Assembly: GCA_038093975.1 (NCBI GenBank)
Contig: JBBPTG010000084.1
Span: forward strand, 53,159 to 117,158
Reading direction: 5' to 3'
DNA: 64,000 nt
Origin: Chalciporus piperatus
Lineage: Eukaryota > Basidiomycota > Agaricomycetes > Boletales > Boletaceae
Each line of letters starts with the position of its first letter. The first letter of the stretch is position 1. Below, piece after piece: positions 28,406-64,000 of this stretch. Below the pieces are notes generated by a model. It was not told where the DNA came from, did no database searches, and was given only the letters and a program-made list of their open reading frames with translations. Position numbers and translations under genes: made by a program.

Positions 28406-28560
28406 GCTGGAGCAGAAGAAAGAGAAATGAACGTATGGGCCACTTGAATTGTATGGAGACTGTGCAACAATGTGAGATCCTGAGAGGCGAAGAGTAATTA
28501 GAGAGTGTTCTGTTTGGATGGTCACGATGGGTGTAGACTAGTCGTGCGCGGGGAACTTTG

Positions 28561-32262: not shown

Positions 32263-34177
<1,915 letters not shown>

Positions 34178-41197: not shown

Positions 41198-42226
41198 TCA
41201 GATTTTCTTCGTCTTCCTCACGTTCTTCCGAGGCGTCTTGCGAGTTTGACGCTTCATCTGCTTTTTCACCTTCGTGTCCGACTCTGACTCCAACGAATCG
41301 TCATCGCCCTTGGAGTCATTTTCATCTTCCGAAGAAATGACACGGGCTTTCTTCTTCTCCCCTTTGTCCTTGGTCTTCCTCCCTTTCCTTTTTCTGTCCC
41401 CCCTTTCCTCTGCATCCTCGTCTGTGTCAGGGACCGAGTCGAGCAGATCCAGTACTACCACCTTGGTTTGCGCATCGGCAGACTGCGGAGGCTTGTATGT
41501 ACTATGACCCGGGCCGGCAATTCTAGGGGGCGAGAGAGAAAGAGACTCGGATGTCTCGGCGGGTACCTTGGGAGGGGGAACTGGAGCTTGCGAGATATGA
41601 GATCCGGTATTGAGAATCGATCCAATAGGAGCGAGCACTTCACGCACAGGTGCCTCCACAGCAACCGGCGGAATGGGGACTTCGAAGGGAGCAGCAGGCG
41701 CCGGTGGTCCCGGAAGAAGAACGAGCGCTTTGAGACGAGCAGGAAGAGAAGGAGTTTCGAGCGAAGCAGGGGGGACAGGGGGTTTATCAAGCAGAGAAGG
41801 CGGTGGTACGTGAGGAGCGACCGCCGATTTGTCAGGAGCAAGCGGTTCGTAAATAGATGCGAGTTCCTCGTGAAGAGGGATATAATTGGAGGGAGCTAGA
41901 AGGGGCGAAGATGGAGGAGGAGTGGCAAGACGAGACGGGGAAGAGATATCCCCCTCACGGCCAGCAGCTGAGGATCCTGAGACATTGCTGGCAGCTTCGA
42001 GTCGTAACACGCGCGCAGCAGCCTGTGCACGCATCTTCGCTAGGAATGGATCATTTCCACCGCCGTTGTTCTCGTTCTCGTGACTACTCAAATCGGCTGT
42101 GCGACCATTTTTGTCGTTGAACAGAACTCTAATCGCGTCGTGCGCGTCATAGAATAAACTATCGAGAAATATTTAAGGAAAGACAACTCACTGATTATGA
42201 TATCCAAGGATGCCGTCTGAGTCCAT
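41198..42226 (-). CDS. Hypothetical Lys-rich, disordered nuclear protein
   Basis: Two exons, 42226-42192 and 42158-41198, with a 33-nt GTGAGT...GATAG intron, give 331 aa starting MDSDGILGYHNHLFYDAHDA. The intron is very short but needed to connect the ATG to the long frame, which otherwise has no ATG near its start. The middle is Pro-rich. The end is acidic then strongly basic (GDRKRKGRKTKDKGEKKKAR; KKQMKRQTRKTPRKNVRKTK), suggesting nuclear or chromatin location. No family is recognised. The ATG lies within the first bases shared by foldback elements A and C, so the native 5' end may have been displaced by insertion of A. Confidence 0.62.
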
Positions 42227-42599
42227 TCAGCTCGTTAGGCTGTACAGCAAGGCCAGCCGATCACCAATTAGGCCGTGCTCTACTGGCCGGCTAAGGATTG
42301 GCCGCTGGTGTATGGTCACCTAGGTTAGGGATCGGCTAGTAATAGAATGTACACATAGAGTAGGGATCAGCCAATGTACCATTTTGCCCTGGCAGTGGGA
42401 ATGGCCAACACAAAGGTTCCCTGAGGTAGGACCTGGCCGACTGGTGCTAATTACCCAGTCCTGCCTGCATCAGGGTTCGGCCCATAGAGAATAGGGATAG
42501 GCCGATGTGTAAACCCTCCATGTGTAGGGAGCGGCCGATGCAGGAAATGTTTAGGGGTGGGCATTGGCCACTGAATCGTGTCTCCTACAGCAGGCATGG

Positions 42600-43740
42600 C
42601 CCGATAGATTGAGTGTCAATGGGTAGGGATGGGCCGATGCAATGATGTCCATCTGTAGGGATGGGCCGATGCAATGATGTCCATCTGTAGGGATGGGCCG
42701 ATGCCACCCACCTCAGTAGGTAGGGATTGGCCGATGTATAGTTTGTTGATGCATAGGAATGGGCCGATGCATTGAGCCTCAATGTGTAGGAATGGGCCGA
42801 TGCATTGAGCCTCAATGCGTAGGGATGGGCCGATGCAATCAGCGTCGATGTGTAGGAATGGGCCAATGGGTTGAGCCTCAATGCGTAGGGATGGGCCGAT
42901 ATACCGATTGTCACTAGGTACGGATGGGCCGATGCAATCAGCATCGATGTGTAGGGATGGGCCGATGCATTCAGCCTCAATGCGTAGGGATGGGCCGATA
43001 TACCTAGTGTTACTAGGTAGGCATGGGCCGATGCAATCAGCGTCGATGTGTAGGAATGGGCCCATGGGTTGAGCCTCAATGCGTAGGGATGGGCCGATAT
43101 ACCTATTGTCACTAGGAAGGCATGGGCCGATATACCTATTGTCACTAGGAAGGCATGGGCCGATGCAATCAGTGTCAATGTGTAGGAATGGGCCAATGGG
43201 TTGAGCCTCAATGGGTAGGGATGGGCTGATATACCTAGTGTCACTAGGTAGGGATGGGCCGATGCAATCAGCGTCAATGTGTAGGGATGGGCCGATGCAT
43301 TCAGCCTCAATGCGTAGGGATGGGCCGATATACCTATTGTCACTAGGAAGGCATGGGCCGATGAAATCAGTGTCAATGTGTAGGAATGGGCCAATGGGTT
43401 GAGCCTCAATGGGTAGGGATGGGCCGATATACCTAGTGTTACTAGGTAGGCATGGGCCGATGCAATCAGCGTCGATGTGTAGGAATGGGCCCATGGGTTG
43501 AGCCTCAATGCGTAGGAATGGGCCAATGGGTTGAGCCTCAATGCGTAGGGATGGGCCGATATACCTAGTGTCACTAGGTAGGGATGGGCCGATGCAATCA
43601 GCGTCGATGTGTAGGGATGGGCCAATGCATTCAGCCTCAATGGGTAGGGATGCGCCGATATACCTAGTGTCACTAGGCAGGCATGGGCCGATGTAAAGTT
43701 AGTCCATTGGTAGGGATAAGCCAATGTGATCAGTGTCAAT
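42600..43740 (+). repeat. 33-bp satellite I, left arm of element A
   Basis: About 34 units of a 33-bp repeat beginning ATGGGCCGAT and ending TGTAGGG. Several unit types alternate: GCAATCAGCGTC, GCATTGAGCCTC, GGGTTGAGCCTC and ATACCTAGTGTCACTAGG (the last contains a palindrome). Because 33 is divisible by three, frames stay open through the array on both strands. Confidence 0.95.
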
Positions 43741-43755
43741 ATTATATGGCCTACA

Positions 43756-44605
43756 CTACATTACATTCCTCAGCCTCTCCAACATGTCCATCTGACGTAG
43801 CAAAGAAATCATATGGAATATGTGTTGCCTACGAGTGTAGGCCAGAAATTCTAAGCGTTCAAACATGATCCAAGATAGGGCCATCAGTGTGGCATCATCA
43901 TTTCTGGCCTGTTCTTCGGCGGCTGATCCCTCTGGCGGCTGGTGTTCTCTGCGCAGCCCTTGGGCCAATTGTCTGTTGGCCCAGTTGATTGCTTGCTCCA
44001 CTGGATTGCGGCCGACGACGTTATCATCAATGTATTCCATGCCATAATCATGAAAACCACTCACAGTGATCAAACGTCCCTGTGAATGGTGTATTTCCTG
44101 TCGCCATGTCCTCAGGATTTCTACCTTGCCAGTCATGGGCTGCAATCCAATGAATTCTTCTGCCCTCATAGGATGCCACGAGGTACTTACGCAGGTCCAG
44201 CTCGTCCAGAAGTCTATTTTCGTTTTCCCTCCGATCATTCGACGACATGATAGCTGGGATGTCAGCCGATGCAATATCCTGCTCATCGGCCTCGGCTGGA
44301 TCACGGCCTGACAAGGTAAGAAAATGTGTCATGAAAGCCGCGTTGATAATCGATGAGTTCTGGGCCATTTCGGCCCACATCCTCTGGCCTCTGGTTTGAT
44401 ACGTTGCCCCTGATTCGGCTGACCTCTGTTGAAACCATTCGGCCACCCTTGCTGCGTCGGCACGGACTGTCCTGATATCCTCCTCGGAGCCATTACCCAA
44501 AAGGATTCGAACGGTTCTCTCAACAGGACGAATGGATCTCATGCCAAGATTCTCCGCACCTCCAAAACCAGCCTGGCGGCTTTCATCTTCTGGGCTTGGG
44601 CTCAT
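43756..44605 (-). CDS. Element-borne gene of unknown family (loop of foldback A)
   Basis: Two exons, 44605-44065 and 44000-43756, with a 64-nt GTGAGT...CCAG intron and a TGATAAC branch-like site, give 261 aa. The ATG at 44605 (MSPSPEDESRQAGFGG) is the first in frame after the satellite. The protein is mostly helical and charged, with no membrane segment. Recognisable stretches: RPVERTVRILLGNGSEEDI, RILL...TRGQRMWAEMAQNSSI, RRIHWIAAHDW, LEQAINWANRQLAQGLRR, and a C-terminal helix ERLEFLAYTRRQHIFHMISL. It resembles no transposase catalytic pattern known to me. The end of the gene recurs in element C as a broken copy, so it belongs to the element family rather than to the site. The upstream promoter must lie in the satellite arm. 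Confidence 0.62.
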
Positions 44606-44650
44606 GGCAAATTCCCGCAGCGCATGTTCTTCCCGATACGGGCCTGTGAA

Positions 44651-45305
44651 ATTGAGGCTCAACCCATTGGCCCATTCCTACACATTGACACTGATTGCAT
44701 CGGCCCATTCCTGCCTAGTGACAATTGGTATATCAGCCCATTCCTACGCATTGAGGCTCATTGCATTGGCCCATTCCTACGCATTGAGGCTCAATGCATC
44801 GGCCCATCCCTACACATCAATGCTGATTGCATCGGCCCATTCCTACCTGGTGACAATAAGTATATTGGCCCATTCCTACCAATGGACTAACTTTAGATCG
44901 ACCTGCCCCTACCTAGTGACAATAGGAATATCGACCCATTTTTAAGCATTGAGGGTCTACCCATTGGCCCATCCCTACACATTGACACTGATTGCATCGG
45001 CCCATTCCTACCTAGTGACACTAGGAATATCGGCCCATCCCTACCCATTGAGGCTCAACCCATTGGCCCACCCCTACGCATTGAGGCTCAACCCATTGGC
45101 CCATTCCTACACATCGACGCTGATTGCATCGGCCCATCCCTACGCATTGAGGCTCAATGCATCGGCCCATTCCTACACATTGAGGCTCAATGCATCGGCC
45201 CATTCCTATGCATCAACAAACTATACATCGGCCAATCCCTACCTACTGAGGCGGGTGGCATCGGCCCATCCCTACCCATTGACACTCAATCTATCGGGCC
45301 ATGCC
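44651..45305 (-). repeat. 33-bp satellite I, right arm of element A (inverted)
   Basis: About 20 units of the same 33-bp repeat in the opposite orientation (GGCCCATTCCTACACATTGA type). It mirrors the unit types of the left arm but is shorter, so the arms are unequal in copy number. Confidence 0.93.
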
Positions 45306-45621
45306 TGCTGTAGGAGACATGATTCAGTGGTCAATGCCCACCCCTAAACATTTCCTGCATCAGCCGCTCCCTACACATGGAGGGTTTACACATCGGCCTA
45401 TCCCTATTCTCTATGGGCCGAACCCTGATGCAGGCAGGACTGGGTAATTAGCACCAGTCGGCCAGGTCCTACCTCATGGAACCTTTGTGTTGGCCATTCC
45501 CACTGCCAGGGCACAATGGTACATTGGCTGATCCCTACTCTATGTGTACATTCTATTACTAGCCGATCCCTAACCTAGGTGCATCAGCAAGACTGTAAAA
45601 AGTCTGAAATGACTGGAGCTT

Positions 45622-45651
45622 ACTTGTCTGACTGGAGCCAGTCAGACAAGT
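45622..45651. repeat. Subterminal hairpin of element B (left); mirrored at 49881-49910
   Basis: Perfect 14-bp arms ACTTGTCTGACTGG / CCAGTCAGACAAGT with a 2-nt spacer. The same hairpin occurs at the other end of the element at 49881-49910. It could be a transposase or recombination site. Confidence 0.85.
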
Positions 45652-45960
45652 GAGCCAGTAGCCAAGTGCCCCAGGCATCCAGTAGTCTCAGTCATCCAGT
45701 AGCCAAGTGCCCCAGGCATCCAGTAGTCTCAGTCATCCAGTAACCAAGTGTTCCAGTCATCCAATAGTCTCAGTCATCCAGTAGTCCAGTGAGTCAGTGC
45801 TCCAGTAATCTCAGTAGTCTCAGTCATCCAGTCATCCAGTATACCATTGGGCTCAGAAACCTAGTCACTCAGGAATCCAGAAACTCGAGTGTTTGAGAAG
45901 TCAATTACCCCAGAAGCCAAGTAACTCCAGTACTCGAGATCCCGAATTCAATCTGGGAGG
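45652..45960 (+). repeat. ACTGGA-type satellite III, left arm of element B
   Basis: Degenerate 10-12 bp units (CAGTCATCCAGTAGTCTCAG type) followed by a short non-repetitive stretch. The right arm carries the reverse complement in a much longer array. Confidence 0.85.
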
Positions 45961-46198
45961 CCAATGGCCAGAGATTTAATAGGGTAGTTTCAGAAAAATA
46001 TATATTTGTGTATCTGATACAATGTATTTACGGGTGGTTACATGGTGAGATGGCTCGACAGGCACCACGACAGTCAGCAGGCACAATACATGGACTCATC
46101 AATCAAAGTGACATGCAAGTGAAGAAGAAGCTCATCTTAAGATGATGGCGACGAGAGCAATATAAGAGAAAGACCGCATGTGGTGGCAACGAAACAAC

Positions 46199-46640
46199 TT
46201 ATGTGGATGCAGTCAAGTACAAGCCATAGGCCGCAGCATACGAAAAAATCTCGGCCAAGTCCTGGGCATCAGGTGTAGATGAGGGTAAGACACGGTCAAC
46301 AGAGATCATCATGATGGTACCACTGTTCAAGAGGGCGATGATCAGAACCATGAAGGGAGGGAAGTCGAAGCGGAACACAAAGGCTAAGATAGTGAAGCAG
46401 ACGACGATGCGGATGGTCTCAGCACAGGCGTAGATGGAATAGTTGCGCATACCTTGGGGAAATTTTCAAATGATACGGGAACCGCAGATAGCGTGAACGA
46501 TGGTGGAGAGACTGGGCTCCGTCAAGACGATGTCAGCGGCACCACGGGCAGGGTCGGTGGCACCTTCAATGGCAATACTACTACCAGCATTGGCACGAGA
46601 GAGGGCGAGGCATGCACCGTGGAGCATGGCAGACGAGGAT
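46199..46640 (-). pseudogene. PMA1: Plasma-membrane H+-ATPase fragment, C-terminal part
   Basis: Two frames match the fungal P3-type proton pump. Around 46600-46466: LALSRANAG, then [20 protein letters not shown] and LSTIVHAI, the hinge and hydrolysis-domain end that leads into membrane segment 5. From 46450 to 46199: MRNYSIYACAETIRIVVCF, FRFDFPPFMVLIIALLN and DLAEIFSYAAAYGLYLT, covering membrane segments 5-6 and beyond. A stop and frameshift separate the blocks (after GSRII). The invariant GDGVNDAPAL is mutated to a GACLAL-like string, and the phosphorylation-site domain is absent. It is a dead fragment, not a pump gene. Confidence 0.88.
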
Positions 46641-46744
46641 GTTGTTAAGACCGCGGTCGTTATACCTGAAACCAGCGCAGAGAACGAGAATTTCAGCGAC
46701 ACATTTCTGGGTCTTGGCGTTTGCGGGACGAGGGATTCCCTCTT

Positions 46745-46985
46745 TGTTGTTCTGCATCTTCGCCGTCCGAGTCTACGCTGTCTATCGTATCTGTCCGACG
46801 TGATGGTGTTGCCGGTTGAAGTCTTCACGAAGATCTGTATACCACCACGGAGTCAACATTAGAAATGTGTATCGAATGGCAACATACCAAGGTGGAGGGT
46901 ACTGTCCTTCTGTTGTAGTTGGAGAGTGTCCGACCGTCCTCAAGCTGCTGAGTACCCGCGAAAATGAGGCGCTGTTGTCAAGGGA
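46745..46985 (-). pseudogene. Ubiquitin gene fragment(s)
   Basis: The first half reads [14 protein letters not shown] (about 46838-46796), matching the start of ubiquitin, followed out of frame by NKEGIP (about 46745). A second block upstream reads QQRLIFAGTQQLEDGRTLSN then STL (about 46983-46890), matching the C-terminal half. The order, C-half of one unit followed by N-half of the next, fits a junction in a polyubiquitin gene. Several substitutions, frameshifts and the missing RLRGG show decay. Confidence 0.85.
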
Positions 46986-47009
46986 CATCAGGCAGTTGCT
47001 ACAGTACAC

Positions 47010-47300
47010 CAAGCACGGACGGGGATACCTTGGCGGTACCATTGTTCTCGTTGGAAAGGATGAGAGGACCACGACGACCAGGACCACGGCATTGGCGATA
47101 ACGGCGGTTGCGCACCTCCACAGAGTTTGCGAGAGTTGGGAACCCTGATGATGTCTGCATGGGCGTTAAGGCTGTTGAGGAGGGCGACGGCTTCCTTGGC
47201 TTCTTGAGGGACTCTACAGAATCGAGGACGACAAGGTGGACTTCGGAGGTTTGCTGGATGCGGGCACGAGCGGCGGCTGGTTCGATGTGGTTGTAAGTTA
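47010..47300 (-). pseudogene. Ribosomal protein uL4 (RPL4) fragment
   Basis: Pieces in three frames follow the order of eukaryotic uL4: HLVVLDSVESLKK, KEAVALLNSLNAHADIIRV, NSRKL, then EVRNRRYRQCRGPGRRGPLI and NENNGTAKV. In intact uL4 these read as one block, with the KMRNRRxxQRRGP motif and EDNG. Frame changes between blocks make it non-functional. It abuts the ubiquitin fragment directly. Confidence 0.8.
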
Positions 47301-47424
47301 GACGTGTTTGACATACAGTGAGCTTACCAAGAGCTTACATAATATTCCAGCACAACTCCACAAGTCCTTGCTCCTCACTCAAGAATGTTGCTCGTCGTCA
47401 GCTCTCGTCGTCGGATTCAAGTCG

Positions 47425-48655
47425 AGTTGTTCGGTCCCAACAAGGTCGAGCAGGAAAAAAGCGACCACCAACACAGACCGGCAGGACTTGTCGGTATCTC
47501 CAGCGACCCCGAATTTATTGGAGTCGTCGTCTAGGTACGCTATCTCACTTAGCGCTCTCCTCAACTCGTGCACCCTCTAGTGCGACAACGGCAAGAACAC
47601 GAGAGTCACGAGGACGGGACAACGATCACACGATTTTACGACAGGACAACGGCGACCACAGAATAACGACAACCACAGGACAGTGCAACGAGGATGATTG
47701 GATGGTGAGCTGCTTCGTTATCCTGGTTTTCGCGTTCCGCTTCGACCTCCCTCTCTTCATGGTTCAAGGCTAATGATTCGTCGTCAGTCCTCGTCGCCGG
47801 GATTGAATTCTGCGGTCCCAACAAGCTCGGAAGAACGCGATACTTCGTCAATATCGACCTCCTGCTCTTCATCAACTCCACATCGTTTCTGCGAAGGGCG
47901 CAAGGTACGGACGTCTCAAACCGACAACGTTGACACTATACACGAGCTCCGTACCCACGCCGTTGAGGGCCCTGCGATCCCCAACCTGCCCATTGCCCAT
48001 CTCCAGGAACTCCCGCTAACGAGACGACGATCGCTGCTCCTCTTGGTCGATACCAATACGTCCCCATTGAGACCACTGAGCCCTCCAATGCTCGCTCTCT
48101 TGAGCCCAGGACTAACTGCCCGGTATGTGTTCGAAATGAGAACCGACCTCGCTGACACTCACGATCTCCATGTTCACGCGAAGGCGGGCGATGAGGGCCC
48201 TGCCATCTTCGACTCGGCCATGTCTCTTCTTCAAGCACGAGATCACACGGGCCAACAAGACGACAATCACTGCTCCACTCGGTGGATACCAATACATCGT
48301 GTGTGTCATGTTGCGTTTGACAGGCTTTCAAAGAACATGTCGCCAACGCTCACTCTTTGTCCATTCCTTTCCTCGTTCGTCCCCGCTGGCGCGGTGTCGC
48401 CCGAAATCCAGTGTAAGTCCCTCATTCACCAAGACTGTCTCGTCTCAGAGTTATTTTTGTCTTTGCACTCACGCGCGGCAAATCGACGCCTTGTATTGTA
48501 TGAAGTGCTCAACGCCAGTAATGCCATCAAGGCTCCCACGGTCTCTCCTGCTCGAAGGCCAAGGTAAGCACAATGACACCTCGTTCTACAATTGAATCTG
48601 TCGATTTCAAGATTGGTGATATTGTGCCTGCTGACTGTCGCGGTGCCTGTCGAGC
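47425..48655 (+). pseudogene. PMA1: Plasma-membrane H+-ATPase fragments, N-terminal part
   Basis: On the opposite strand to the C-terminal fragment, scattered blocks match the N-terminal half of the pump. They are VELFGPNKVEQEKS (47428-47460), a second copy GIEFCGPNKLGR (about 47800), LLLFINST (about 47855-47880), YEVLNASNAIKA (about 48499-48540, family YEERNAGNAVKA) and DFKIGDIVPADCR (48602-48642). A block CFVILVFAFRFDLPLFM (47710-47763) is a decayed inverted copy of membrane segment 5. An unidentified segment with two diverged copies (EGPAIPNL.../EGPAIFDS..., 47960-48300) lies between. Duplications, inversions and stops rule out function. Confidence 0.8.
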
Positions 48656-48774
48656 CATCTCACCATGTAACCACCCGTAAATACATTGTATCAGATACAC
48701 AAATATATATTTTTCTGAAACTACCCTATTAAATCTCTGGCCATTGGCCTCCCAGATTGAATTCGGGATCTCGA

Positions 48775-49880
48775 GTACTGGAGTTACTTGGCTTCTGGGG
48801 TAATTGACTTCTCAAACACTCGAGTTTCTGGATTCCTGAGTGACTAGGTTTCTGAGCCCAATGGTATACTGGATGACTGGCTGACTGTCATACTGAGTAA
48901 CTAGGCTACTGGAATCACTTGTCAACTGGGCTACTAGATAACTGGATTGTTAGATTACTGGATTACTGAGTTACTGGAGCACTGAATTCACTTGCCAACT
49001 GAACTACTGGACCATTGAGTGACTGGATTACTGGATTACTGGATTACTGGAATCACTTGTCAATTGGGCTACTGGGCTACTGGATTACTGAAGTACTTGA
49101 CTACTGGATTACTTGACTACTTGACTACTGGAATCACTTGTCAATTGGGCTACTAGATAACTGGATTGTTAGATTACTGGATTACTGAGTTACTGGAGCA
49201 CTGAATTCACTTGCCAACTGAACTACTGGACCATTGAGTGACTGGATTACTGGATTACTGGATTACTGGAATCACTTGTCAATTGGGCTACTGGGCTACT
49301 GGATTACTGAAGTACTTGACTACTGGATTACTTGACTACTTGACTACTGGAATCACTTGTCAATTGGGCTACTAGGCTACTGGATTACTGAATAACTGGG
49401 CTACTGGGTTACTGATATTACTGGATGACTGGATGGCTGGATGACTGGAGCACTGCCACACTGAACTGACTGGGTGACTGGATGACTGGAGCACTGCCAC
49501 ACTGAACTGACTGGGTGACTGGATGACTGGAGCACTGCCACACTGAACTGACTGGGTGACTGGAGCACTGAACTACTGGGTGACTGAGATGACTGGATGA
49601 TTGGAGCACTTGGCCACTGGGCCACTGGGACTACTGAAATGACTTGGTGACTGGATGACTGGATGACTGGGACTACTGAAATGACTTGGTGACTGTATGA
49701 CTGGATGACTGAGACTACTGAGATTACTGGAGCACTGACTCACTGGACTACTGGATGACTGAGACTATTGGATGACTGGAACACTTGGTTACTGGATGAC
49801 TGAGACTACTGGATGCCTGGGGCACTTGGCTACTGGATGACTGAGACTACTGGATGCCTGGGGCACTTGGCTACTGGCTC
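48775..49880 (-). repeat. ACTGGA-type satellite III, right arm of element B
   Basis: A 1.1-kb array of ACTGG/ATTACTGG/GACTACTGG units. It includes a ~235-bp higher-order duplication: the block starting CACTTGTCAATTGGGCTACT recurs near 49054, 49133, 49270 and 49348. It is far longer than the left array (about 0.3 kb), so the arms have diverged in length. Confidence 0.88.
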
Positions 49881-49958
49881 ACTTGTCTGACTGGCTCCAG
49901 TCAGACAAGTAAGCTCCAGTCATTTCAGACTTTTTACAGTCTTGCTGATGCACCAGCT

Positions 49959-53785: not shown

Positions 53786-54069
53786 AGAAGAGAGCCCATT
53801 CAGCTCGTTAGGCCGTACAGCACGGCCAGCCGATTGCCAATTAGGCCGTGCTCTACTGGCCGGCTAACGATTGGCCGCTGGTGTATGATCACCTAGGTTA
53901 GGGATCGGCTAGTAATAGAATGTACACGTAGAGTGGGGATCAGCCAATGTACCATTGTGCCCTGGCAATGGGAATGGCCAACACAAAGGTTCCATGAGGT
54001 AGGACCTGGCCGACTGGTGCTAATCACCCAGTCCTGCCTGCATCAGGGTTCGGCCCATAGAGAATAGGG

Positions 54070-54480
54070 ATGAGCCTCAATGTGTAGGAATGGGCCAATG
54101 GGTGGAGCCTCAATGTGTAGGGATGGGCCAATGCATTGAGGCTCAATGTGTAGGGATGGGCCGATGCATTGAGGCTCAATGTGTAGGAATGGGCCGATGG
54201 GTTGAGCCTCAATGGGTAGGGATGGGCCGATGGGTTGAGCCTCAATGTGTAGAAATGGGCCGATGCAATCAGTGTCAATGTGTAGGAATGGGCCGATGGG
54301 TTGAGCCTCAATGCGTAGGGATGGGCCGATGCAATCAGTGTCAATGTGTAGGGATGGGCCAATGCGTTGAGCCTCAATGCTTAGGAATGGGCCGATATTC
54401 TTATTGTCACTCGTTAGGGGTGGGCGGATGTAAAGTTAGTCCATGGGTAGGGATAAGCCGATGTGATCAGTGTCAATATT
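54070..54480 (+). repeat. 33-bp satellite I, left arm of element C
   Basis: About 12 units of the same 33-bp family as in element A, ending in TAGGGATAAGCCGATGTGAT just before the loop, exactly as in A. Confidence 0.93.
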
Positions 54481-54496
54481 ATATGGCCTACACTAC

Positions 54497-54690
54497 ATGA
54501 CATTCCTCAGCCTCTCGAACATGTCCATCTGACGTAGCAAAGAAATCAGATGGAATATGTGTTGCCTACGAGTGTAGGCCAGAAATTCTAAGCGTTCAAA
54601 CCTGATTCAAGATATGGCCATCAGCGTGGCATCATCATTTCTGGCATGTTCTTCGGCGGCTGATCCCTCCGGGGCTGGTGTTCGCTGCAC
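54497..54690 (-). pseudogene. Truncated copy of the element A loop gene
   Basis: This is the 3' end of the same gene as at 43756-44605: EGSAAEEHARNDDATLMAIS, then FERLEFLAYTRRQHIFHLIS and the same stop. The Trp codon of ALSWIMF is TGA here, and the coding part upstream is cut off where satellite II begins at about 54691. Confidence 0.85.
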
Positions 54691-54694
54691 AGCC

Positions 54695-55505
54695 CTTGGG
54701 CCTAACCCATGTCCCGAGCGACTCACCCGCACCACAAACGAGTTCTCAGCGACCCGCATGGCCCTCCAGTGGTCCAACCGGCCCACCCATGCCTCAATCG
54801 ACTCACCTATGCCCCAAGCGGCTCACTCATGTCCCGAGCGACTCACCTGCACCACAAACGAGTCATCAGCGACCCAACCGGCCCATTAGTGCCTCAATCG
54901 ACTCACCTATGCCCCAAGCGGCTCACCCATGTCTCAAGTGACTCACCCACACCACAAACGAGTCATCAGCAACCCAAACGGCCCTCCAGCGACTTGAACG
55001 GCCCTCCAGCGACCCAAACGGCCCTCCAGTGGTCCAACCGGCCCACCCATGCCTCAATCGACTCACCTATGCCCCGAGCGGCTCACCCATGTCCCGAGCG
55101 ACTCACCCGCACCACAAACAAGTCATCAGCGACCCAACCGGCCGATTAGTGCCCCAATCGACTCACCTACGCCCCAAGCGGCTCAGCCATGTCCTGAGCG
55201 ACTCACCCGCACCACAAACGAGTCATCAGCAACCCAAACGGCCCTCCAGCGACCCAAACGGCCCTCCAGTGGTCCAACCGGCCCACCCATGCCTCAATTG
55301 ACTCACCTATGCCCCGAGCGGCTCACCTACACCCCGAGCGGCTCACCCATGTCCCGAGCGACTCACCCGCACCACAAACGAGTCATCAGCAACCCAAACG
55401 GCCCTCCAGTGGTCCAACCGGTCCATCCATGCCCCAATCGTCTCACCTACGCCCCGAGCGGCTCACCCATGTCCCGAGCGACTCACCCGCACCACAAACG
55501 AGTTA
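54695..55505 (+). repeat. Satellite II, left arm of element D
   Basis: Tandem, imperfect units built from CGACTCACC(C/T), ATGCCCCGAGCGGCTCACC, AAACGGCCCTCCAG and ACCACAAACGAGTCATCAGC modules, with a higher-order period of about 240 bp. Several frames stay open through it. Confidence 0.9.
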
Positions 55506-55600
55506 AAAAACGCGGCGGCTCCTCAGGCTGGCCACTCATCCAGTCCGAGGACGACAATGGACAATGGACAATGATAGGAGTTACATACTACTCATAGATA

Positions 55601-55918
55601 CTAGTACATGGAATAAATATATTTTATTCTACTACTCGTGAACATGCAAGGTTTAGGTAGTTTCAAAGAAGGCAGAACATACTCTCCATCAGCTGCGTCA
55701 TACATCCGATCAGCAGTGCTTGGTGTGAGGCCACGATCCAGTGGCGTTTCTAGTCTCGGCATCTGAGGTGATGATTGAGGGATTGCAGCCTTGTGTTTTT
55801 TGCTCTTGTGGCTTGGCAGGGTGAGCTTGACCATCTTGATCTTTGATCCCTTCTTGAGAAACTTGACCTCTTGCACTGGGGTCCATGGTGTGGCCTTCTC
55901 GATCTTGGGCTTGACCAT
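55601..55918 (-). CDS. Small ORF in loop of element D, unknown
   Basis: 105 codons starting MVKPKIEKATPWTPVQEVKF, Lys-rich (KKGSKIKMVKLTLPSHKSKK), ending inside the arm at CMFTSSRIKYIYSMY. The Lys-rich first half has codon-like regularity and no stops, but no family is recognised. It may be the remnant of a larger loop gene. The plus-strand frame starting at 55918 overlaps its start and is less convincing. Confidence 0.25.
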   Translation of the reverse strand: MVKPKIEKATPWTPVQEVKFLKKGSKIKMVKLTLPSHKSKKHKAAIPQSSPQMPRLETPLDRGLTPSTADRMYDAADGEYVLPSLKLPKPCMFTSSRIKYIYSMY

Positions 55919-56399
55919 TGTACAATCAGATACTTGGTGATAATGTTTGCCTCATTGGCAGGTTAGCATATTTCAGGCCACCCAGGGGCATAGGTGACAA
56001 GATGAACGGGCCGGAGCCTTTGATCACTCACGGAAGCATTTGTACGTCAGAGCCATCAGATCCTTCCTCCGAACAACAGCCAAGTGACATCGGATGCATT
56101 AGCCGATATCTTGACAGCTTCTTATCCGACGTCATCAGGACGATTTAAGATGCAGACATGGCTGAAAGGTGACAAGCGTCTGATTGACAGCTTCACACCC
56201 GACGTCCTCGGGCCTATTTTAGATGTCTGATAAATTGACCCAGAGCCGACATCATTGGGACCTATCACACCGAAGGAGCCAATGACCAGCAACAAAGGTT
56301 CCTGACTGCACTGACACCAGGATTTGTTTCTCTTGCACCTGAAGTCACAGAAAGATGGTCATGAAGTCTGCCACCCAAACGACGGCCGAACGTTCCTAT

Positions 56400-56584
56400 T
56401 GTTGAACGTAGCGTACATTCTTAGTATAGAAGGTAGTTACCACGCTTGTTCTATATCACATTCGGACTCAGTCGATCTGAGTTCTAATACAACTTGACTT
56501 GTAACCACAACGTTCGAAGTTACCCAACAACCTCACCGCTAGGTAAGTCACCAGAAGTAGTTCCTCACTGGAACCCTCTCAACA
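56400..56584 (+). repeat. Copia 5' LTR
   Basis: 185 bp, TG...CA ends, identical by eye to 61910-62094. It must hold the promoter. The run TTCTATATCACATTC near 56449 is the most TATA-like stretch. Confidence 0.95.
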
Positions 56585-56598
56585 GGTTATGAGCCCTG
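56585..56598 (+). other. Primer-binding site (half initiator tRNA-Met)
   Basis: GGTTATGAGCCCTG is the exact complement of CAGGGCTCATAACC, the anticodon stem-loop of fungal initiator tRNA-Met. Copia of Drosophila and yeast Ty5 also prime from this half-tRNA rather than from the tRNA 3' end. Confidence 0.88.
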
Positions 56599-56873
56599 GG
56601 TAGCTCAGCTGTGCGCGAAAGCGCCGCTGACTACTCTGGTGTTCTTGCCTAACAAGAACGTTTGGTCGCTCTGCGCGGTTTTACCGCCGGGCATCCCTCT
56701 GATGCGGTCACGCTCAGAAGGGACATGACCACAATGAGTCAGATCCCATGGGGAGACTATGTCCCCCTAGGATATGGGCTCTGAGCGTTCACGCTGACGC
56801 GGTTCAACCCGCTCCCTTTTCTCCTCTTCGATTAAAGGCAACGCTGACACTTCATCCCGCTAGATACTCAACT

Positions 56874-59800
56874 ATGTCCTCCGCTCTCAAGGAAATCGCC
56901 CGCCTTAACGGAACCAACTACACGCGTTGGGCCGAGGAGATGCAGGATTATATCCGCTCCCAAGGCCTATGGCAGAAGGTCATGGTTCGCGCCATGCCTG
57001 CCATCACTGATACCCCGCCTTCCACTCAGGCGCAGATCGATGCGTGGCAGGACGACGATGACAAGGTCCTCGGCTCCATACGCATGCGTTTAGAAACGCA
57101 CGTCGCTAGCCAGTTCCCTATCGCAACTCACCCCGACTCCGTTCAACTCTGGGCTGCAATCAAAACGCGTTACGACTCTACGTCGGACGCCGCCGCGTAC
57201 TCTGAGATTCAGAAGATGCTCGCCATCAACTTCCCCAAGGAGGATCACCCGGGAAAAACCTTCGCAGCTCTCAACAGCTCTTTTGCGAAGCTGAATACAC
57301 TCACGTACACGATTCCAGACAACATCCAACGGATGTTCGTGTTGGCGAAGCTCCCCGCTTACGCCAACTACATCGTCAAGTCAGTCAACGAGAGATCCGT
57401 CCCTACCGCTGCCACCACCGCCACTCCCGCCGTCGCTGCACCCACGCTGGTGCAAATCGAACAACGCGTCGTCGCTGCCTACCAGCAGCACATCTCCCGA
57501 CGTGTGCCGAAGAATGCGCAGCCTGCTCAGCAGGCAAACCAGATCTCCGCTGTCAAGCGGAAGGGGGACGACCCCAAGTTTAACCAACAACAGGAGTCCT
57601 CTGCTTCGCAGAAGCCGGACGGTGAGCAGAAGAAGAAGAAGCGCAGAGAAGGTAAGCGCTCGGAAAAGGGGAAGAAGAAGCGCGACGAACGTCGCGCCAA
57701 TGCGAACGACGCTTCTGCGTCCTTCGCCTTCTCCTCTTTCTCCAACGCACCCGTGCTCAGCCCGGCCTCCACCATCTTCACTTCCCCCGTCGTCGACCCT
57801 CGTACCCTCGCGCACACCACCGGCGCACATCAATACGGTCCTCCCGCCTTTCCTCACACCCAGAACGCCATATCCCTTGCGGACCGGCTGGGTGTCACGC
57901 CTACTATCGAGACCGTCCGTACGCTTGACCCTGTGGCTAACCGCCACATCAACTACGACGCCCCCGTCTCTCTCCCGCGCTCGCCCTTCTATAAGAAGGA
58001 TGGCGCATCTATGTCCTTCCCGGTCAACGACCATAGGACTCTCCAACATCAACTCGGTGCGGCCTACTTCGGCCCTTCTGGTTTTTCTCGTATTCACGAG
58101 ACTCCTTCCCGCTCTCTTCTAGAGCGCCTGGATGAAACCATCGAAGACGCTGAGATGGAGATCGCGTCCATCATGCCCCTCGACGAGGAGTATGAGGCGG
58201 AGGGCGAAGACACCGTCTCCTTAGGCGACGAAGCACCTGACGAGTTTATCTCGCAGTACTTCGACTTTGGGGCCGCTGACGTTTGGCAAGTCCCTTTCCC
58301 GCTCTTTCTCTACACAGACACTGATGTGCGGCCTTCGCCACAGAAAATTGCATTTTACTGTAACATGTCTGATGTAGTAGATAGAAATGAATCTACTGCT
58401 ACCCCGTTCCAACTGTGTGATAACTGTTCAAAGAACGATAAGGGCAAGCAAAAGAGCGACGTGTATGACACACCAGCAGACCTTTGGCTGCTAGATTCAG
58501 GGGCTTCGGCCCATTTTACAAATAATATCAACGATTTCGCTGAGTACAACGCTTTTACCAAGCCAGAGTACTCACAGACAGCGAACGGTCGTGCGCCAAT
58601 TCTTGACATCGGCACAGTTATTGTGGAGTTCAATGGAAACACCGTGCGGTTATCGCCAACCATATACATGCCCACATGTAACATTAAGCTTATTTCGATG
58701 GGCACATTGCTCAAAGATCAGTGTCTAACACTGAAAGCTGTTCCGAACGGTATCGAATTCCAAGATACCTGCATTAAAAAGACCATTCTATCGTTTCACT
58801 CCCATGGTCGTGATACCATGTACTGGATCAAAGCGCCTACCGTCAAACCACATGCCAAGCCTATCAGCATGGCCGCTGTGGACTACGACTTGCTACATCG
58901 CCGCCTCGGTCATCCCTCGCGTGACGTGCTCAAAGCCGCACGCAAACATCTCAAAGATTTCCCGGACGTTGAAATTCCGTCCCATCCTCCCATTTGTCCC
59001 GGTTGCGAACTCGGCAAACAGCCTAACAGGACGTTTCCTCATACTGAGACGCGTGCAAGCGCTCCTTTTGAGTTGATTCACTCTGATCTCAAGTCATTCG
59101 AGATAGAATCGTACCATAAGTTTAAATACGCGGTCGTATTCTACGATGACTTCACATCAATGTCCTGGCTCGCCCTTATACGCACCAAGGACCAGACCCT
59201 TAAAATGGTCAAACAATTTATTGCTTTCGTCCGCACACAGTACAACGCCAAAGTAAAGGCTTGGAAATCCGATGCCGGAGGCGAATATACCTCCAAGGCA
59301 TTCACGGAATACATGCGTGATGAAGGCATCCGTATTCAACAGTCCGCCCCATACGCACATCAGCAGAACGGGCGTGCGGAACGCTTAATCCGCACATTAA
59401 TGGACAAAGCACAGGCGATGCGTTTACACGCTTGCCTACCCGATTCTTACTGGGAATTCGCTTTAACGCATGCATCCCACGTGTACAATCGTACACCAAT
59501 GGCTAGGTTAAACTGGAAGACTCCTATGGAGAAACTTACAGGGGAACAATCCTCCGTCTCCCACCTAAGAGTATTCGGATGTGGTGCATATGTGCATCTT
59601 CCCGATGAAACAAGGAAAGGGAAACTACAACCTAAGTCCCAATTAATGATTTATCTCGGTGTTGCCCCTGGTAGTGAGCGCAACTACATCTTTATGCGCC
59701 CCAACAACTCCATGCACACGTCTGCACATGCCATCTTTGATGAGCATTTGTTTCCTAAGTGTTCCGGTGCACGCCCTCACAGGCCCGTAAGTCACCCACC

Positions 59801-61838
59801 CACTGAAACACATCGACACACCGATGATGAAAACGAGTCTTCTGACTCTGACTCCTCTGACGATCAGTCTGATGCGGTTAAACCCGCCCCTGATCCCCAG
59901 CCAGCACCAGCACGCCCGGAAACCCCACCGGCACCTGCGCCTGCACCTCCTGTCACACCGCCATCCGCTCGTCCACCAGCTGGACCACCTGATGCCCCAC
60001 CTCGCCGATCTCAACGTGAACGCCGACCCCCTACTCGTCCTGGGAACGTCTATGGCGAAGATCGTCATCCTTTACAACAGATTAAGGACATTGAGAAGAG
60101 ATCTCGATGGGAAAGGCTAATCGGACACGGCGAATCATCACGAGAACCGCAGCGTGAACAACCAATCCCAGGTTCCATGCCCGACTCTACTCCTTCGGAG
60201 GACGAGATCGAACGCATAACCAGGGAAGGGGGAGAGGCATTGATTAACTATCTTTGCTCTCGTGCTTATATTCCGGATGAAATGAGTAATCCCAACTATC
60301 GCGAATGGAAATTCCGTGATATACTCAAACTTCCTGCCGAGGAACAAAAACTCTGGCGCCAAGCCTGCGAAACAGAGCTTCAGATGCTCAAAGATCGCAA
60401 GGTTTATGAAATTGTAGATCGACCAGCTGATCGTAAGATCATTAAAAATCGCTGGGTATTCGACGTCAAGTCTGACGGTCGTAAACGCGCTCGCCTAGTA
60501 GCCAAAGGCTTCTCACAGGTTGAAGGCGTAGACTACGATCAGATCTTCTCCCCAGTCGTACGATACGAAACGGTGCGGTGTATGCTCGCCCTTTCTACAC
60601 TTGAGAACTGGTACATCACCGGTCTCGACGTACGATCTGCCTATCTATACGGCAAACTGGAAGAGGAACTCTACATGGAGTTTCCTGAGGGTTTTATGCC
60701 ACCCGAACAAAAAGGCAAAGTCCTAAGACTACTACGTGCTATATACGGCCTCAAACAAGCAGGATTATCCTGGTGGCGCACGTTAGACAAGTCCATGGCT
60801 GAACTTGGCTTCACAAGGCTCAAAACTGACGCCGGCCTGTTCATATACCGCAATGGAAATGATATCGTCATTGCGATTGTCTACGTTGATGACGCCCTCT
60901 TCTGTGGACCTAACAAAGCTGTCGTAGACAAGCTAAAGGCCACATTCATGAAGACATGGGAATGTCGAGACCTCGGGGAACCTAAAGAGTTCCTTGGGAT
61001 GAATCTTCGTCGAGAAGGCAAAAAGCTGCACATTGATCAGTGCAAATACCTCGACAAGGTGCTTGAACGCTTCGGCATGACGAATGCTAAAGCCGCACCC
61101 ACTCCACTTCCTCAGGGTTATTACCCAGAGAAGAACGTTGCCCCCGTTAACTTCGAATTGCGGACGCGCTTTCAAACGGTGATAGGCTCGTTATTATACT
61201 TGATGTTAGGCACACGCCCAGACATCGCCTACGCAGTTACCCAACTGGCAAGGCAATCCGCCAATCCTACTAAGGAGCACTTGGATAGGGCTCTGTACAT
61301 ATGTCGATACCTAGTCGGTACTCGACAGTACTCCCTTACCTTTAATGGTGCATCTGGCAACGGCATTTATGCCTGTACCGACTCTGACTGGGGGCAAGAC
61401 CCCATCACAAGACACTCGCAGACAGGGTTTTTCCTGAAACTCGCGGACGGTGCTTTCCTTTGGAATTCACACTTGCAGAGCTCTACCGCCCTCAACTCTA
61501 CAGAAGCTGAGTATATGGCATTGAGTGATTGCACACGACAAGTATCCTGGATACACCACATGTTCTCAGAACTAGGTTATAAGCTAAAAGCTATACCGGT
61601 CTGTGGTGATAACCAAGGATCACTATTTATGGGTGAAAATCCCGTTACCGAGAAGCGTAATAAACATATTCCACTACGGTACTTCTTTATACGTGACGCC
61701 GTAATGAAGTGGAAAGAAGTAGAACTCTTCTACATTCCTGGAACTGACAATCCAGCGGATATGTTAACAAAGAACCTCGGACATGTCAAATTCGAGAAGT
61801 TCCGCTCCGAACTCGGTCTGGTATTCTACACCAGTTGA
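56874..61838 (+). CDS. Copia Gag-Pol polyprotein
   Basis: One frame of 1654 aa from the ATG at 56874 (MSSALKEIARLNGTNYTRWA); an upstream ATG at 56748 adds 42 residues unlike Gag. Domains in order: Gag (UBN2-like, to about 250), a Lys/Arg block (KKKKRREGKRSEKGKKKR) with no CCHC zinc knuckle, protease (WLLDSGASAHFTN, Asp codon at 58494), GAG-pre-integrase HHCC (HRRLGHPSRDV...CPGCELGKQ), integrase D-D-E (HSDLKSF; SDAGGEYTSK; QQNGRAERLIRT), reverse transcriptase (RWVFDVKSDGRKRARLVAKG; YVDD at 60882-60893) and RNase H (TDSDWGQD; STEAEYMALSD; DNQGS; DMLTKNLG). All catalytic residues are present and there is no frameshift between Gag and Pol, as in Copia proper. Confidence 0.97.
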   Translation: MSSALKEIARLNGTNYTRWAEEMQDYIRSQGLWQKVMVRAMPAITDTPPSTQAQIDAWQDDDDKVLGSIRMRLETHVASQFPIATHPDSVQLWAAIKTRYDSTSDAAAYSEIQKMLAINFPKEDHPGKTFAALNSSFAKLNTLTYTIPDNIQRMFVLAKLPAYANYIVKSVNERSVPTAATTATPAVAAPTLVQIEQRVVAAYQQHISRRVPKNAQPAQQANQISAVKRKGDDPKFNQQQESSASQKPDGEQKKKKRREGKRSEKGKKKRDERRANANDASASFAFSSFSNAPVLSPASTIFTSPVVDPRTLAHTTGAHQYGPPAFPHTQNAISLADRLGVTPTIETVRTLDPVANRHINYDAPVSLPRSPFYKKDGASMSFPVNDHRTLQHQLGAAYFGPSGFSRIHETPSRSLLERLDETIEDAEMEIASIMPLDEEYEAEGEDTVSLGDEAPDEFISQYFDFGAADVWQVPFPLFLYTDTDVRPSPQKIAFYCNMSDVVDRNESTATPFQLCDNCSKNDKGKQKSDVYDTPADLWLLDSGASAHFTNNINDFAEYNAFTKPEYSQTANGRAPILDIGTVIVEFNGNTVRLSPTIYMPTCNIKLISMGTLLKDQCLTLKAVPNGIEFQDTCIKKTILSFHSHGRDTMYWIKAPTVKPHAKPISMAAVDYDLLHRRLGHPSRDVLKAARKHLKDFPDVEIPSHPPICPGCELGKQPNRTFPHTETRASAPFELIHSDLKSFEIESYHKFKYAVVFYDDFTSMSWLALIRTKDQTLKMVKQFIAFVRTQYNAKVKAWKSDAGGEYTSKAFTEYMRDEGIRIQQSAPYAHQQNGRAERLIRTLMDKAQAMRLHACLPDSYWEFALTHASHVYNRTPMARLNWKTPMEKLTGEQSSVSHLRVFGCGAYVHLPDETRKGKLQPKSQLMIYLGVAPGSERNYIFMRPNNSMHTSAHAIFDEHLFPKCSGARPHRPVSHPPTETHRHTDDENESSDSDSSDDQSDAVKPAPDPQPAPARPETPPAPAPAPPVTPPSARPPAGPPDAPPRRSQRERRPPTRPGNVYGEDRHPLQQIKDIEKRSRWERLIGHGESSREPQREQPIPGSMPDSTPSEDEIERITREGGEALINYLCSRAYIPDEMSNPNYREWKFRDILKLPAEEQKLWRQACETELQMLKDRKVYEIVDRPADRKIIKNRWVFDVKSDGRKRARLVAKGFSQVEGVDYDQIFSPVVRYETVRCMLALSTLENWYITGLDVRSAYLYGKLEEELYMEFPEGFMPPEQKGKVLRLLRAIYGLKQAGLSWWRTLDKSMAELGFTRLKTDAGLFIYRNGNDIVIAIVYVDDALFCGPNKAVVDKLKATFMKTWECRDLGEPKEFLGMNLRREGKKLHIDQCKYLDKVLERFGMTNAKAAPTPLPQGYYPEKNVAPVNFELRTRFQTVIGSLLYLMLGTRPDIAYAVTQLARQSANPTKEHLDRALYICRYLVGTRQYSLTFNGASGNGIYACTDSDWGQDPITRHSQTGFFLKLADGAFLWNSHLQSSTALNSTEAEYMALSDCTRQVSWIHHMFSELGYKLKAIPVCGDNQGSLFMGENPVTEKRNKHIPLRYFFIRDAVMKWKEVELFYIPGTDNPADMLTKNLGHVKFEKFRSELGLVFYTS

Positions 61839-61900
61839 TCTCGCTGATACTTATCATGCGGAAGTCCTCATTTATGCTTACGTGTCTCCGTACACTTAGC

Positions 61901-61909
61901 AAGGGGGAG
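61901..61909 (+). other. Polypurine tract
   Basis: AAGGGGGAG directly abuts the 3' LTR and would prime plus-strand synthesis. Confidence 0.85.
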
Positions 61910-62094
61910 TGTTGAACGTAGCGTACATTCTTAGTATAGAAGGTAGTTACCACGCTTGTTCTATATCACATTCGGACTCAGTCGATCTGAGTTCTAATAC
62001 AACTTGACTTGTAACCACAACGTTCGAAGTTACCCAACAACCTCACCGCTAGGTAAGTCACCAGAAGTAGTTCCTCACTGGAACCCTCTCAACA
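61910..62094 (+). repeat. Copia 3' LTR
   Basis: 185 bp, identical by eye to the 5' LTR; it is followed by the CCTAT target duplication. Confidence 0.95.
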
Positions 62095-62099
62095 CCTAT

Positions 62100-62335
62100 G
62101 ATATGCAGGACCTTCCCTCCAGCGATCATGCATCAGCAAATCCTCAGTGAGCTGCACAATGCTGTGGCACTCTGCACAGCATGTTCCTGTCACAGTATGA
62201 CAGAAAGGTCCCCCTCTGTGCAGCATAGTCACAGCACTGTACAGAGTCTCGATTCTGTACGAACTTGTACAGAAGCAAAAGTTTTACCAGCCTCTGTCTT
62301 CTGTACTTGCGAAATTCTCTTTGCATGTTCACGAG
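62100..62335. other. Element D loop sequence, right of the Copia
   Basis: About 235 bp joined to 55.65-56.39 kb before the Copia came in. It is rich in TGCACAG/CTGTACAG motifs, with no coding capacity recognised. Confidence 0.55.
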
Positions 62336-62464
62336 TACTATAGAATAAAATATATTTATTCCATGTACTAGTATCTATGAGTAGTATCTAACTCCTGTCG
62401 TTGTCCATTGTCCATTGTCGTCCTTGGACTGGATGAGTGGCCAGCCTGAGGAGCCGCCGTGTTT

Positions 62465-62670
62465 TTTAACTCGTTTGTGGTGTGGGTGAGTCGCTCGGGA
62501 CATGGGTGAGCCGCTCGGGGCGTAGGTGAGACGATTGGGGCATGGGTGAGTCGCTTGAGGCATGGGTGGGCCGTTTGGGTCGCTGGAGGGCCGTTTGAGT
62601 CGCTGGAGGGCCGTTTGGGTCACTGAGAACTCGTTTGTGGTGCGGGTGAGTTGTTTGGGTGGCAGGTGAA
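62465..62670 (-). repeat. Satellite II, right arm of element D (inverted)
   Basis: About 200 bp of GGTGAGTCGCTCGGGACATG / GGGCCGTTTGGGTCGCTGGA units, the reverse complement of the left array and much shorter. Confidence 0.88.
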
Positions 62671-62870
62671 TCGCTCAGGGCGACGGCCGTGAATTGGGCT
62701 GGCGGCTGTGGCGCGGCTGTGTCATGGGCAAATTCTGTCCCTAAATGGATGATTTGCTGATGAGATCAACAGGTGACCGAAGAATCGGCTGAGGGGTTGA
62801 TGGGCCCATGGGAGCGGGGGGGCCGGTGGGTTGGCAGCAGAGGCCAGCCCTGAGACGCATGACGCAACTA
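62671..62870. other. Loop remnant of element C, right side
   Basis: 200 bp of unique sequence between the arms of D and C. It is not the missing part of the element A loop gene. A minus-strand frame here (AANPPAPPLPWAHQPLSRF) is Pro-rich and continues from the satellite; it is probably chance. Confidence 0.45.
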
Positions 62871-63770: not shown

Positions 63771-64000
63771 CCCTATTCTCTATGGGCCGAACCCTGATGC
63801 AGGCAGGACTGGGTGATTAGCACCAGTCGGCCAGGTCCTACCTCATGGAACCTTTGTGTTGGCCATTCCCATTGCCAGGGCACAATGGTACATTGGCTGA
63901 TCCCTACTCTACGTGTACATTCTATTACTAGCCGATCCCTAACCTTGGTGATCATACACCAGCGGCCAATCGTTAGCCGGCCAGTAGAGCACGGCCTAAT

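Follow-up and report, generated by a model that had tools for sequence, protein, structure and literature searches.

The element described here occupies positions 45582–49950 of a 64,000-nucleotide (nt) stretch of the Chalciporus piperatus genome (contig JBBPTG010000084.1 of assembly GCA_038093975.1, positions 53,159–117,158), hereafter the window. It has the shape of a foldback, with a loop of 2531 nt between its inner arms, and the loop carries decayed fragments of host genes for the plasma-membrane H+-ATPase PMA1, polyubiquitin, ribosomal protein uL4 and a histidine-acid-phosphatase-like protein. We consider it likely that this is a non-autonomous foldback DNA transposon of the PlavakaB lineage, mobilised in trans, whose host gene cargo was captured by repair and is mostly inherited.

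Arms, loop and gene fragments

The arms consist of satellite units of roughly 8 bp each and pair almost perfectly, with 2 mismatches in 268 nt between the inner arms and 1 in 259 nt between the outer ones (Table 1). The element thus has the long inverted arms containing tandem repeats that characterise foldbacks, and the inverted satellite arms around a 2.5-kb loop described in the original prediction, which a model had made from the sequence alone, are borne out. The span given there, 45583–49958, contains the element but misses its exact ends: identity with other copies begins at query position 2–5, mostly at 5 (window position 45582), and sets the ends at 45582 and 49950. Because the 804-nt difference between the two arms is bounded by a repeat of roughly 20 nt, the left arm may be read as derived from the right one by copying, with loss of an internal segment.

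The PMA1 parent gene of the same genome lies on contig C32 (contigs are designated by C numbers throughout). On the minus strand, 46199–46465 matches the plant H+-ATPase 5ksd in a search of solved structures (E = 1e-21), and 46123–46620 is 83% identical to the C32 gene over 510 columns by BLAST (E = 1e-153). The plus strand holds several pieces of the N-terminal half and one membrane segment, detected by BLAST at 47424–47459, 47710–47765, 47844–47896 and 48511–48604 and extended by a mosaic aligner. Both the minus-strand C-terminal and the plus-strand N-terminal H+-ATPase pieces of the original prediction are therefore real. Differences between the PMA1 cargo and its parent fall on all three codon positions (20/139, 15/139 and 28/140), as fits passenger DNA. 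A PMA1 paralogue on C372 holds a lone 177-bp arm with a family tip (6808–6984) in place of parent nt 856–1030, which looks like the remnant of an event between the element family and that gene.

The uL4 piece resembles solved uL4 chains only weakly (E = 3e-4) and is 77% identical to the genome's own uL4 gene on C67, whilst the ubiquitin piece is 70% identical to the polyubiquitin genes on C1 and C287 and spans a unit junction in the polyubiquitin order that had been proposed; these matches confirm the two minus-strand assignments. Apart from the parents, the ubiquitin piece found only C452 in a search with the loop. Compared with one stretch of the C1 gene, the window and C452 share 48 differences over 254 positions, whilst the window alone agrees with the gene at 8 and C452 alone at 10. 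Element arms were not seen on C452 from 4245 to 9964. C452 may be the donor of the ubiquitin piece, or a sister of the donor.

The three housekeeping genes originally named are all represented, but the count of three was too low, since there are at least four sources. The fourth, missed previously, is a histidine-acid-phosphatase-like gene (C85:45437–46213) matched by window positions 48014–48357 in BLAST and 47916–48360 in the mosaic aligner. Its partial spliced protein resembles prostatic acid phosphatase (E = 4e-5); Pfam models gave no match to it.

The loop as a whole shares 127 15-mers with the parents and has six exact matches of 20–33 nt to them, whilst one stretch of equal length elsewhere in the window, taken as a control, shares no 15-mer. 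Three segments (47273–47421, 47499–47680 and 48361–48478) are without a confident source, and 47273–47498 and 48316–48521 recur in other elements. The mosaic aligner also yields segments from control sequence (12 in a shuffled loop and nine of 15–49 nt in window 30000–32600), and mosaic pieces below about 50 nt are claimed only where BLAST supports them or where they continue a supported piece. Identity in 50-nt bins suffers register slips in the satellite and was used for the general picture only. A search of a plasmid collection gave no match.

Most pieces are 70–90% identical to their parents and their orientations are mixed. Pfam applied to ten loop frames returned no relevant match and two weak unrelated ones, indicating that the protein signal has decayed, as had been claimed for all pieces, and neither a coding nor a regulatory role is evident for them. 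That the foldback is a silencing locus, its transcript being processed into small RNAs with control over PMA1, ubiquitin and uL4, is highly improbable: the inverted arms could form a hairpin, and the exact matches to the parents leave room for small RNAs without arguing for them, but the arms of such a hairpin would be double-stranded and the gene-bearing loop mostly single-stranded, and the divergence of most pieces, their presence in both orientations and the spread of PMA1 differences over all codon positions do not favour this idea.

Capture at the DNA level

Several of the pieces contain what appear to be introns, judged by reading frame and splice signals. In the PMA1 piece there is a stretch that breaks the parental reading frame, its first letters being GTAAGT in the parent and ATAAGT in the window; the ubiquitin piece retains one that interrupts codons in the C1 gene; and of one apparent intron in the C85 gene, both ends survive in the phosphatase pieces. 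Retention of intron sequence implies that the source was genomic DNA, and the sequences thus point to capture at the DNA level. Fragments in the Pack-TYPE elements of plants are likewise typically copied from chromosomal DNA. The borders of the pieces do not follow exons, since uL4 is cut within an open exon, at parent nt 1367, and the PMA1, ubiquitin and phosphatase pieces retain apparent introns. For these reasons we rejected capture along exon borders, and the exon-like borders of the original prediction do not hold.

A family with common tips

The terminal sequence of the window element is that of a large family. A degenerate 27-nt terminal pattern has 319 matches in the genome at up to 2 mismatches, with none for the reversed control, and the terminal 103 nt has at least 40 long matches at 99–100% identity, 40 of the 80 candidates being scored. 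Family tips read CATCAGCAA..TTGCTGATG and exist in two variants, the window element having the GACTGT variant. Amongst 54 ends examined, 48 have the identical 35 nt, a proportion biased upward by the choice of most loci for their likeness to the window tip; C174, C18 and C226, however, were found first by their cargo and yet have the same tip.

Target duplications of at least 2 bp flank nine of 16 complete tip pairs (eight of 2 bp and one of 3 bp, with the pair on C483 being of the other tip variant) and four of 11 pairs in a second set. Pooled, 13 of 27 pairs are duplicated against 14.6% expected from random pairing of flanks (p = 3.6e-5), and no duplication exceeds 3 bp. The flank adjoining the tip prefers TA.

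These data bear on whether the locus is mobile at all. A pseudogene cluster joined to unrelated satellite by rearrangement or misassembly would account for a window copy that lacks a target duplication and has two unrelated flanks, but tips, arms and gene pieces recur on many contigs with different flanks and about half of the family pairs have duplications, and we regard this as the most improbable reading of all.

Members of the family vary widely in size. Two mini-elements have family tips, at C36:158201–159060 (860 bp, duplication TA) and C174:22387–22647 (261 bp, duplication AA, one mismatch in one tip). C3:260586–263683 is a 3.1-kb member with internal tandem repeats, and many tip pairs are of similar length; the PMA1, uL4 and ubiquitin parents have no match in it, and no transposase frame is obvious. 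Family tips paired 8.2 kb apart at C36:164020–172245 mark a candidate larger element.

Shared cargo and common descent

Outside the parents, 34 clusters of fragments were found, of which 19 combine pieces of two or all three of the PMA1, uL4 and phosphatase genes; these figures are lower bounds and leave out the three parents, the C372 paralogue of PMA1, and C149 and C52, which were taken as phosphatase paralogues. At least one family tip stands on the proper side in 21 clusters, C465 and C55 (near 144 kb) have arm sequence and no tip in the stretch read, C83 is cut by a contig end, and the other 10 are counted from their fragment matches. Some clusters (C62/C117 and C36/C2/C274) are probably haplotype or segmental duplicates and not independent insertions.

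The cargo of different copies shares both borders and substitutions. Among 258 aligned PMA1 columns, seven changes are common to the window, C174, C18 and C226 and absent from C483 and the parent, four are confined to C174, C18 and C226, and four occur in all five. The uL4 border at parent nt 1367 or 1368, together with the sequence beyond it, is common to the window, C174, C18, C465 and C44. A deletion in PMA1 that brings approximately nt 675 next to 818–851 is found in the window, the minus-strand pieces of C174 and C18, C226, C203 and C83, its support in the window being good in one instance (via C203) and weaker in the other; the plus-strand PMA1 pieces of C174 and C18 have another junction, 697/797. 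Over 4377 columns C174 and C18 are 89.7% identical. Because borders and substitutions are shared, the cargo appears to have been mostly inherited and later scrambled, and the comparisons indicate a mainly inherited composite that is not private to the window element.

The BLASTN comparison recommended in the original prediction therefore yielded sister copies with overlapping cargo, with the parents on other contigs; in this genome the fragments were not found together without the arms, and their similarity to PMA1, ubiquitin and uL4 holds. The proposed fungal Pack-type foldback with multi-gene capture is right as to kind, in that terminal inverted repeat (TIR) arms enclose captured genes, and wrong in detail: there are at least four sources, the cargo is shared and exon borders are not followed.

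Could each element instead have captured its genes independently, by the tandem-insertion and remobilisation route of plant Pack-TYPE elements? That route has been described for plants (PMC8903248), the single arm with a family tip inside the C372 paralogue would suit it, and C483, which has few changes in common with the rest, might have had a separate origin. Nevertheless, we think independent capture unlikely: the window, C174, C18, C226 and others share substitutions, the mid-exon uL4 border and the PMA1 deletion junction, and the same genes recur together in more than half of the clusters. The element on C483 (669–8178, 7.5 kb) has the other tip variant, PMA1 and uL4 pieces and further frames; Pfam found nothing convincing in those of its frames that resemble more captured genes. 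Its cargo may represent a separate capture.

Relation to PlavakaB

PlavakaB elements are described as having termini 5'-CATCA..TGATG-3' and target duplications of 2 or 3 bp, and Zisupton, a member of KDZ, as having 8-bp duplications (Kojima 2025, PMC12730594). The window element has CATCA..TGATG at 45582 and 49950, and duplications of 2–3 bp are found at the level of the family, in 13 of its 27 pairs, and not at the window copy. Profile searches of the genome gave 135 Plavaka matches, with pieces of one gene counted apart, and 75 KDZ matches; so many matches of these two kinds, like the PMA1-type H+-ATPase, indicate a fungal and probably a basidiomycete host. The tips and duplications fit a non-autonomous PlavakaB-like element (CACTA-like, CMCT group).

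Two other assignments were considered and rejected. Mutator-like elements (MULEs) make target site duplications of 8–11 bp, and none of the 27 pairs has a duplication above 3 bp. Helitrons lack both terminal inverted repeats and target duplications, and this family has both.

A family element at C174:44535, with the 3-bp duplication CTA, starts about 14 bp upstream of an apparent Plavaka start codon, and tips at C12, C66 and C22 are also no more than about 500 bp away from Plavaka matches. The Plavaka genes at C160 and C168 have 5' regions unlike each other, with no tip seen there.

Arm renewal and the proposed route of capture

Both inner arms of the window element end in the same 22 nt of PMA1, with one mismatch. 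Only the right-hand scar runs on into a PMA1 fragment, and the match of other copies to the inner arm stops at query position 227 (46067). The same scar in both inner arms implies that an arm was duplicated after PMA1 DNA was already inside, and on the simplest reading PMA1 was captured first and the right arm then served as template for the inner left arm.

Tips and interiors have diverged to very different extents. The first 99–103 nt are 99–100% identical among many elements, whilst the shared cargo aligns at about 72–92% between the window and other copies or among the others; C36 and C2, at 95.4% over 2528 columns, are probably a duplicated segment. A fast-mutating interior as the cause of diverged interiors finds no support. 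In C62 and C117, which share flanks, mismatches number 25 in 922 columns of flank, 13 in 779 of arm and 6 in 296 of interior, so that interiors are not unusually mutable; in C152 and C261 they number 7 in 157 columns of flank, 3 in 128 of tip and 17 in 859 further in.

Under the transposon interpretation, a Plavaka transposase would act in trans on the CATCA..TGATG tips, as the tips and duplications suggest, and capture, scrambling and arm renewal would result when excision or a stalled fork is followed by faulty repair that takes the opposite arm, a second family member or a host gene as template for the break. Passenger DNA would decay whilst the tips stay alike. We infer repair copying because the family shows intron-bearing copies, deletions, tandem and inverted duplications, and renewal of arms.

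A more specific proposal, which might be called 'Pack-Plavaka', is that arm-templated repair in this fungal family of CACTA-like foldbacks makes inherited mosaic cargo out of host genes, with breaks in the arms refilled from the opposite arm, sister copies or host genes, and with the PMA1 scar and the C372 arm as remnants of such events; the route would be unlike both the tandem insertion of plants and the transcript capture of fungal hAT elements. We offer this tentatively, as an idea with rather less than an even chance of being right. If true, the tips would be uniform and the interior would be a record of copying events.

Several observations weigh against the transposon interpretation or parts of it. 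Around the window copy itself there is no target duplication, and it is bordered on the left by the right arm of another foldback (about 42219–45581, with a 33-bp satellite) and on the right by Copia sequence; ectopic recombination between arms, deletion or misassembly could have produced this arrangement, and identical arms invite assembly errors. No duplication of at least 2 bp is seen in 14 of the 27 pairs. The near-identical arms of the window copy are not a family rule, since arm-to-arm identity ranges from 78 to 99.8% in nine elements including the window; in the best full-length alignments it is 85% in C174, 78% in C18, 79% in C2, 97% in C207, 99.8% in C221, 88% in C348, 86% in C338 and 90% in C259. 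Simple descent is at odds with a few PMA1 changes, such as two found in the window and C483 only, and the step of capture and scrambling by repair copying is inferred rather than observed.

The source of transposase is the other weak point. None was found inside copies, either by Pfam on the ten window frames or in frames of class-B elements read by eye, and one Plavaka protein compared with the examined family loci matched nothing except the flanking gene at C174. On 19 contigs with known tips, entered by hand, none of 33 Plavaka or KDZ matches lay inside a tip pair of less than 12 kb; the tips came from a list of 100 of the 319, and contigs with a single tip outside this set were compared by eye. 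Plavaka and KDZ matches do lie 2–2.5 kb inside single tips on C32 (Plavaka, 2148–3152; tip at 5551) and C216 (KDZ, 30598–31248; tip at 28470).

Comparison with known systems

With PlavakaB as described by Kojima (PMC12730594) the family has in common the CATCA..TGATG termini and the 2–3-bp duplications, and this genome contains Plavaka matches; it differs in its long satellite arms, its captured host genes and the transposase not being found inside. In the Plavaka papers surveyed, titles and abstract openings make no mention of host gene capture by non-autonomous Plavaka elements.

Plant Pack-TYPE elements (Pack-MULE, Pack-CACTA) are non-autonomous TIR elements with host gene fragments (PMC8903248). 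The window element resembles them in being bounded by TIRs, in carrying host gene fragments, with no transposase found, and in the apparent introns of its PMA1, ubiquitin and phosphatase pieces, which mark copies of chromosomal DNA. A duplication around the element, also expected of the class, is present in 13 of the 27 family pairs and absent at the window copy. Set against the plant elements as that source presents them, the differences are the fungal host, the foldback arms, the composite present in many diverged copies and the arm duplicated after capture.

Amongst fungi, a hAT element of Pseudocercospora fijiensis and its relatives captured histone H3 from a transcript or retrocopy and is represented by 471 elements decayed by repeat-induced point mutation (RIP) (PMC6710886). 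It too is a TIR element of fungi through which a housekeeping gene multiplied into many copies that decayed, but it involves one gene, no introns and 8-bp duplications, compared with several genes, introns and CATCA tips here. The hAT transduplication of histone H3 in Pyrenophora tritici-repentis, called the first fungal example, is similar in that a fungal DNA transposon multiplies host-like coding sequence and different in having one gene, mostly open frames and a transposase in the long form (PMC3538342). Tetris, a foldback of Drosophila virilis, shares long TIRs with internal tandem repeats, rearranged copies and the absence of a detected transposase, and host gene capture is not described in the parts of that account used here (PMC4079207). 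Helitrons of Pleurotus ostreatus are basidiomycete transposons with captured gene fragments that move by rolling circle (PMC4289320), unlike the present family with its TIRs and target duplications.

Single-gene capture by fungal hAT elements is thus already known; what is new here is the capture of several genes, with introns, between foldback arms with PlavakaB-like tips. Judging from the portions of these sources drawn on here, Pack-type capture is documented mainly in plants, and the fungal TIR cases compared are single-gene hAT elements (PMC3538342, PMC6710886). Because the shared composite, its decayed relatives and the intact parents all occur in the C. piperatus genome, capture, deletion, duplication and arm renewal can be followed as a series, and comparison of the copies offers a test of how capture works. 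Captured cargo of this type can also mislead gene annotation.

Feature coordinates and neighbouring elements

Table 1. Features of the foldback element in window coordinates; parent nt refers to positions in the corresponding parent gene
Feature	Position	Strand	Remarks
Outer left arm of terminal inverted repeat, 8-bp-type satellite	45582..45840	+	Tip CATCAGCAAGACTGTAAAAAG, common to other copies; 1 mismatch/259 to right arm
Subterminal imperfect palindrome, left arm	45618..45655	.	38 nt; mirror copy 49877-49914; DNA fold z = -5.74
Inner left arm	45821..46088	+	2 mismatches/268 to inner right arm
PMA1 scar within inner left arm	46067..46088	-	About parent nt 1066-1042; also at 48620-48641 in right arm
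PMA1 C-terminal fragment	46105..46631	-	Parent nt 2916-2380, includes apparent intron; 46123-46620 by BLAST
PMA1 middle fragment	46632..46701	-	Parent nt 1465-1393
Polyubiquitin fragment across unit junction, with intron remnant	46730..47021	-	46986-47021 matches C452 copy only
uL4 fragment, parent nt 1617-1367	47022..47272	-	Border 1367/1368 common to C174, C18, C465, C44
PMA1 N-terminal fragment, internal deletion 636-670 / 818-862	47422..47498	+	47424-47459 by BLAST; 47457-47498 by mosaic aligner only
PMA1 membrane-segment fragment, parent nt 2595-2660	47700..47765	+	Inverted relative to 46345-46400
Second PMA1 N-terminal fragment, similar deletion 629-674 / 844-928	47795..47915	+	47844-47896 by BLAST to parent; 47778-47918 by BLAST to C203, which has the junction; rest by mosaic aligner
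Phosphatase-like fragment, first copy	47916..48129	+	Ends at apparent 5' splice site; 48014-48130 by BLAST, 47916-48007 by mosaic aligner only
Phosphatase-like fragment, second (tandem) copy	48130..48297	+	BLAST, mosaic aligner and repeat detection
Phosphatase-like fragment, apparent intron 3' end and next exon	48298..48360	+	BLAST and mosaic aligner
PMA1 N-terminal fragment 880-1005 / 1030-1065, running into inner right arm	48479..48640	+	48511-48604 by BLAST; rest by mosaic aligner
Inner right arm	48620..48887	-	2 mismatches/268 to inner left arm
Right-arm-only satellite	48888..49691	-	804 nt extra; absence from left arm bounded by roughly 20-nt repeat
Outer right arm	49692..49950	-	Tip ..CTTGCTGATG; 1 mismatch/259 to outer left arm

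A second foldback family, with arms of 33-bp satellite, is represented in the window at 42219–45581 and 53792–64000, the latter copy having an additional 20-bp satellite and passing the window end. In the loop of this second copy sits a Copia retrotransposon (56400–62094) with an open frame of 1711 amino acids and identical 185-bp repeats at 56400–56584 and 61910–62094.

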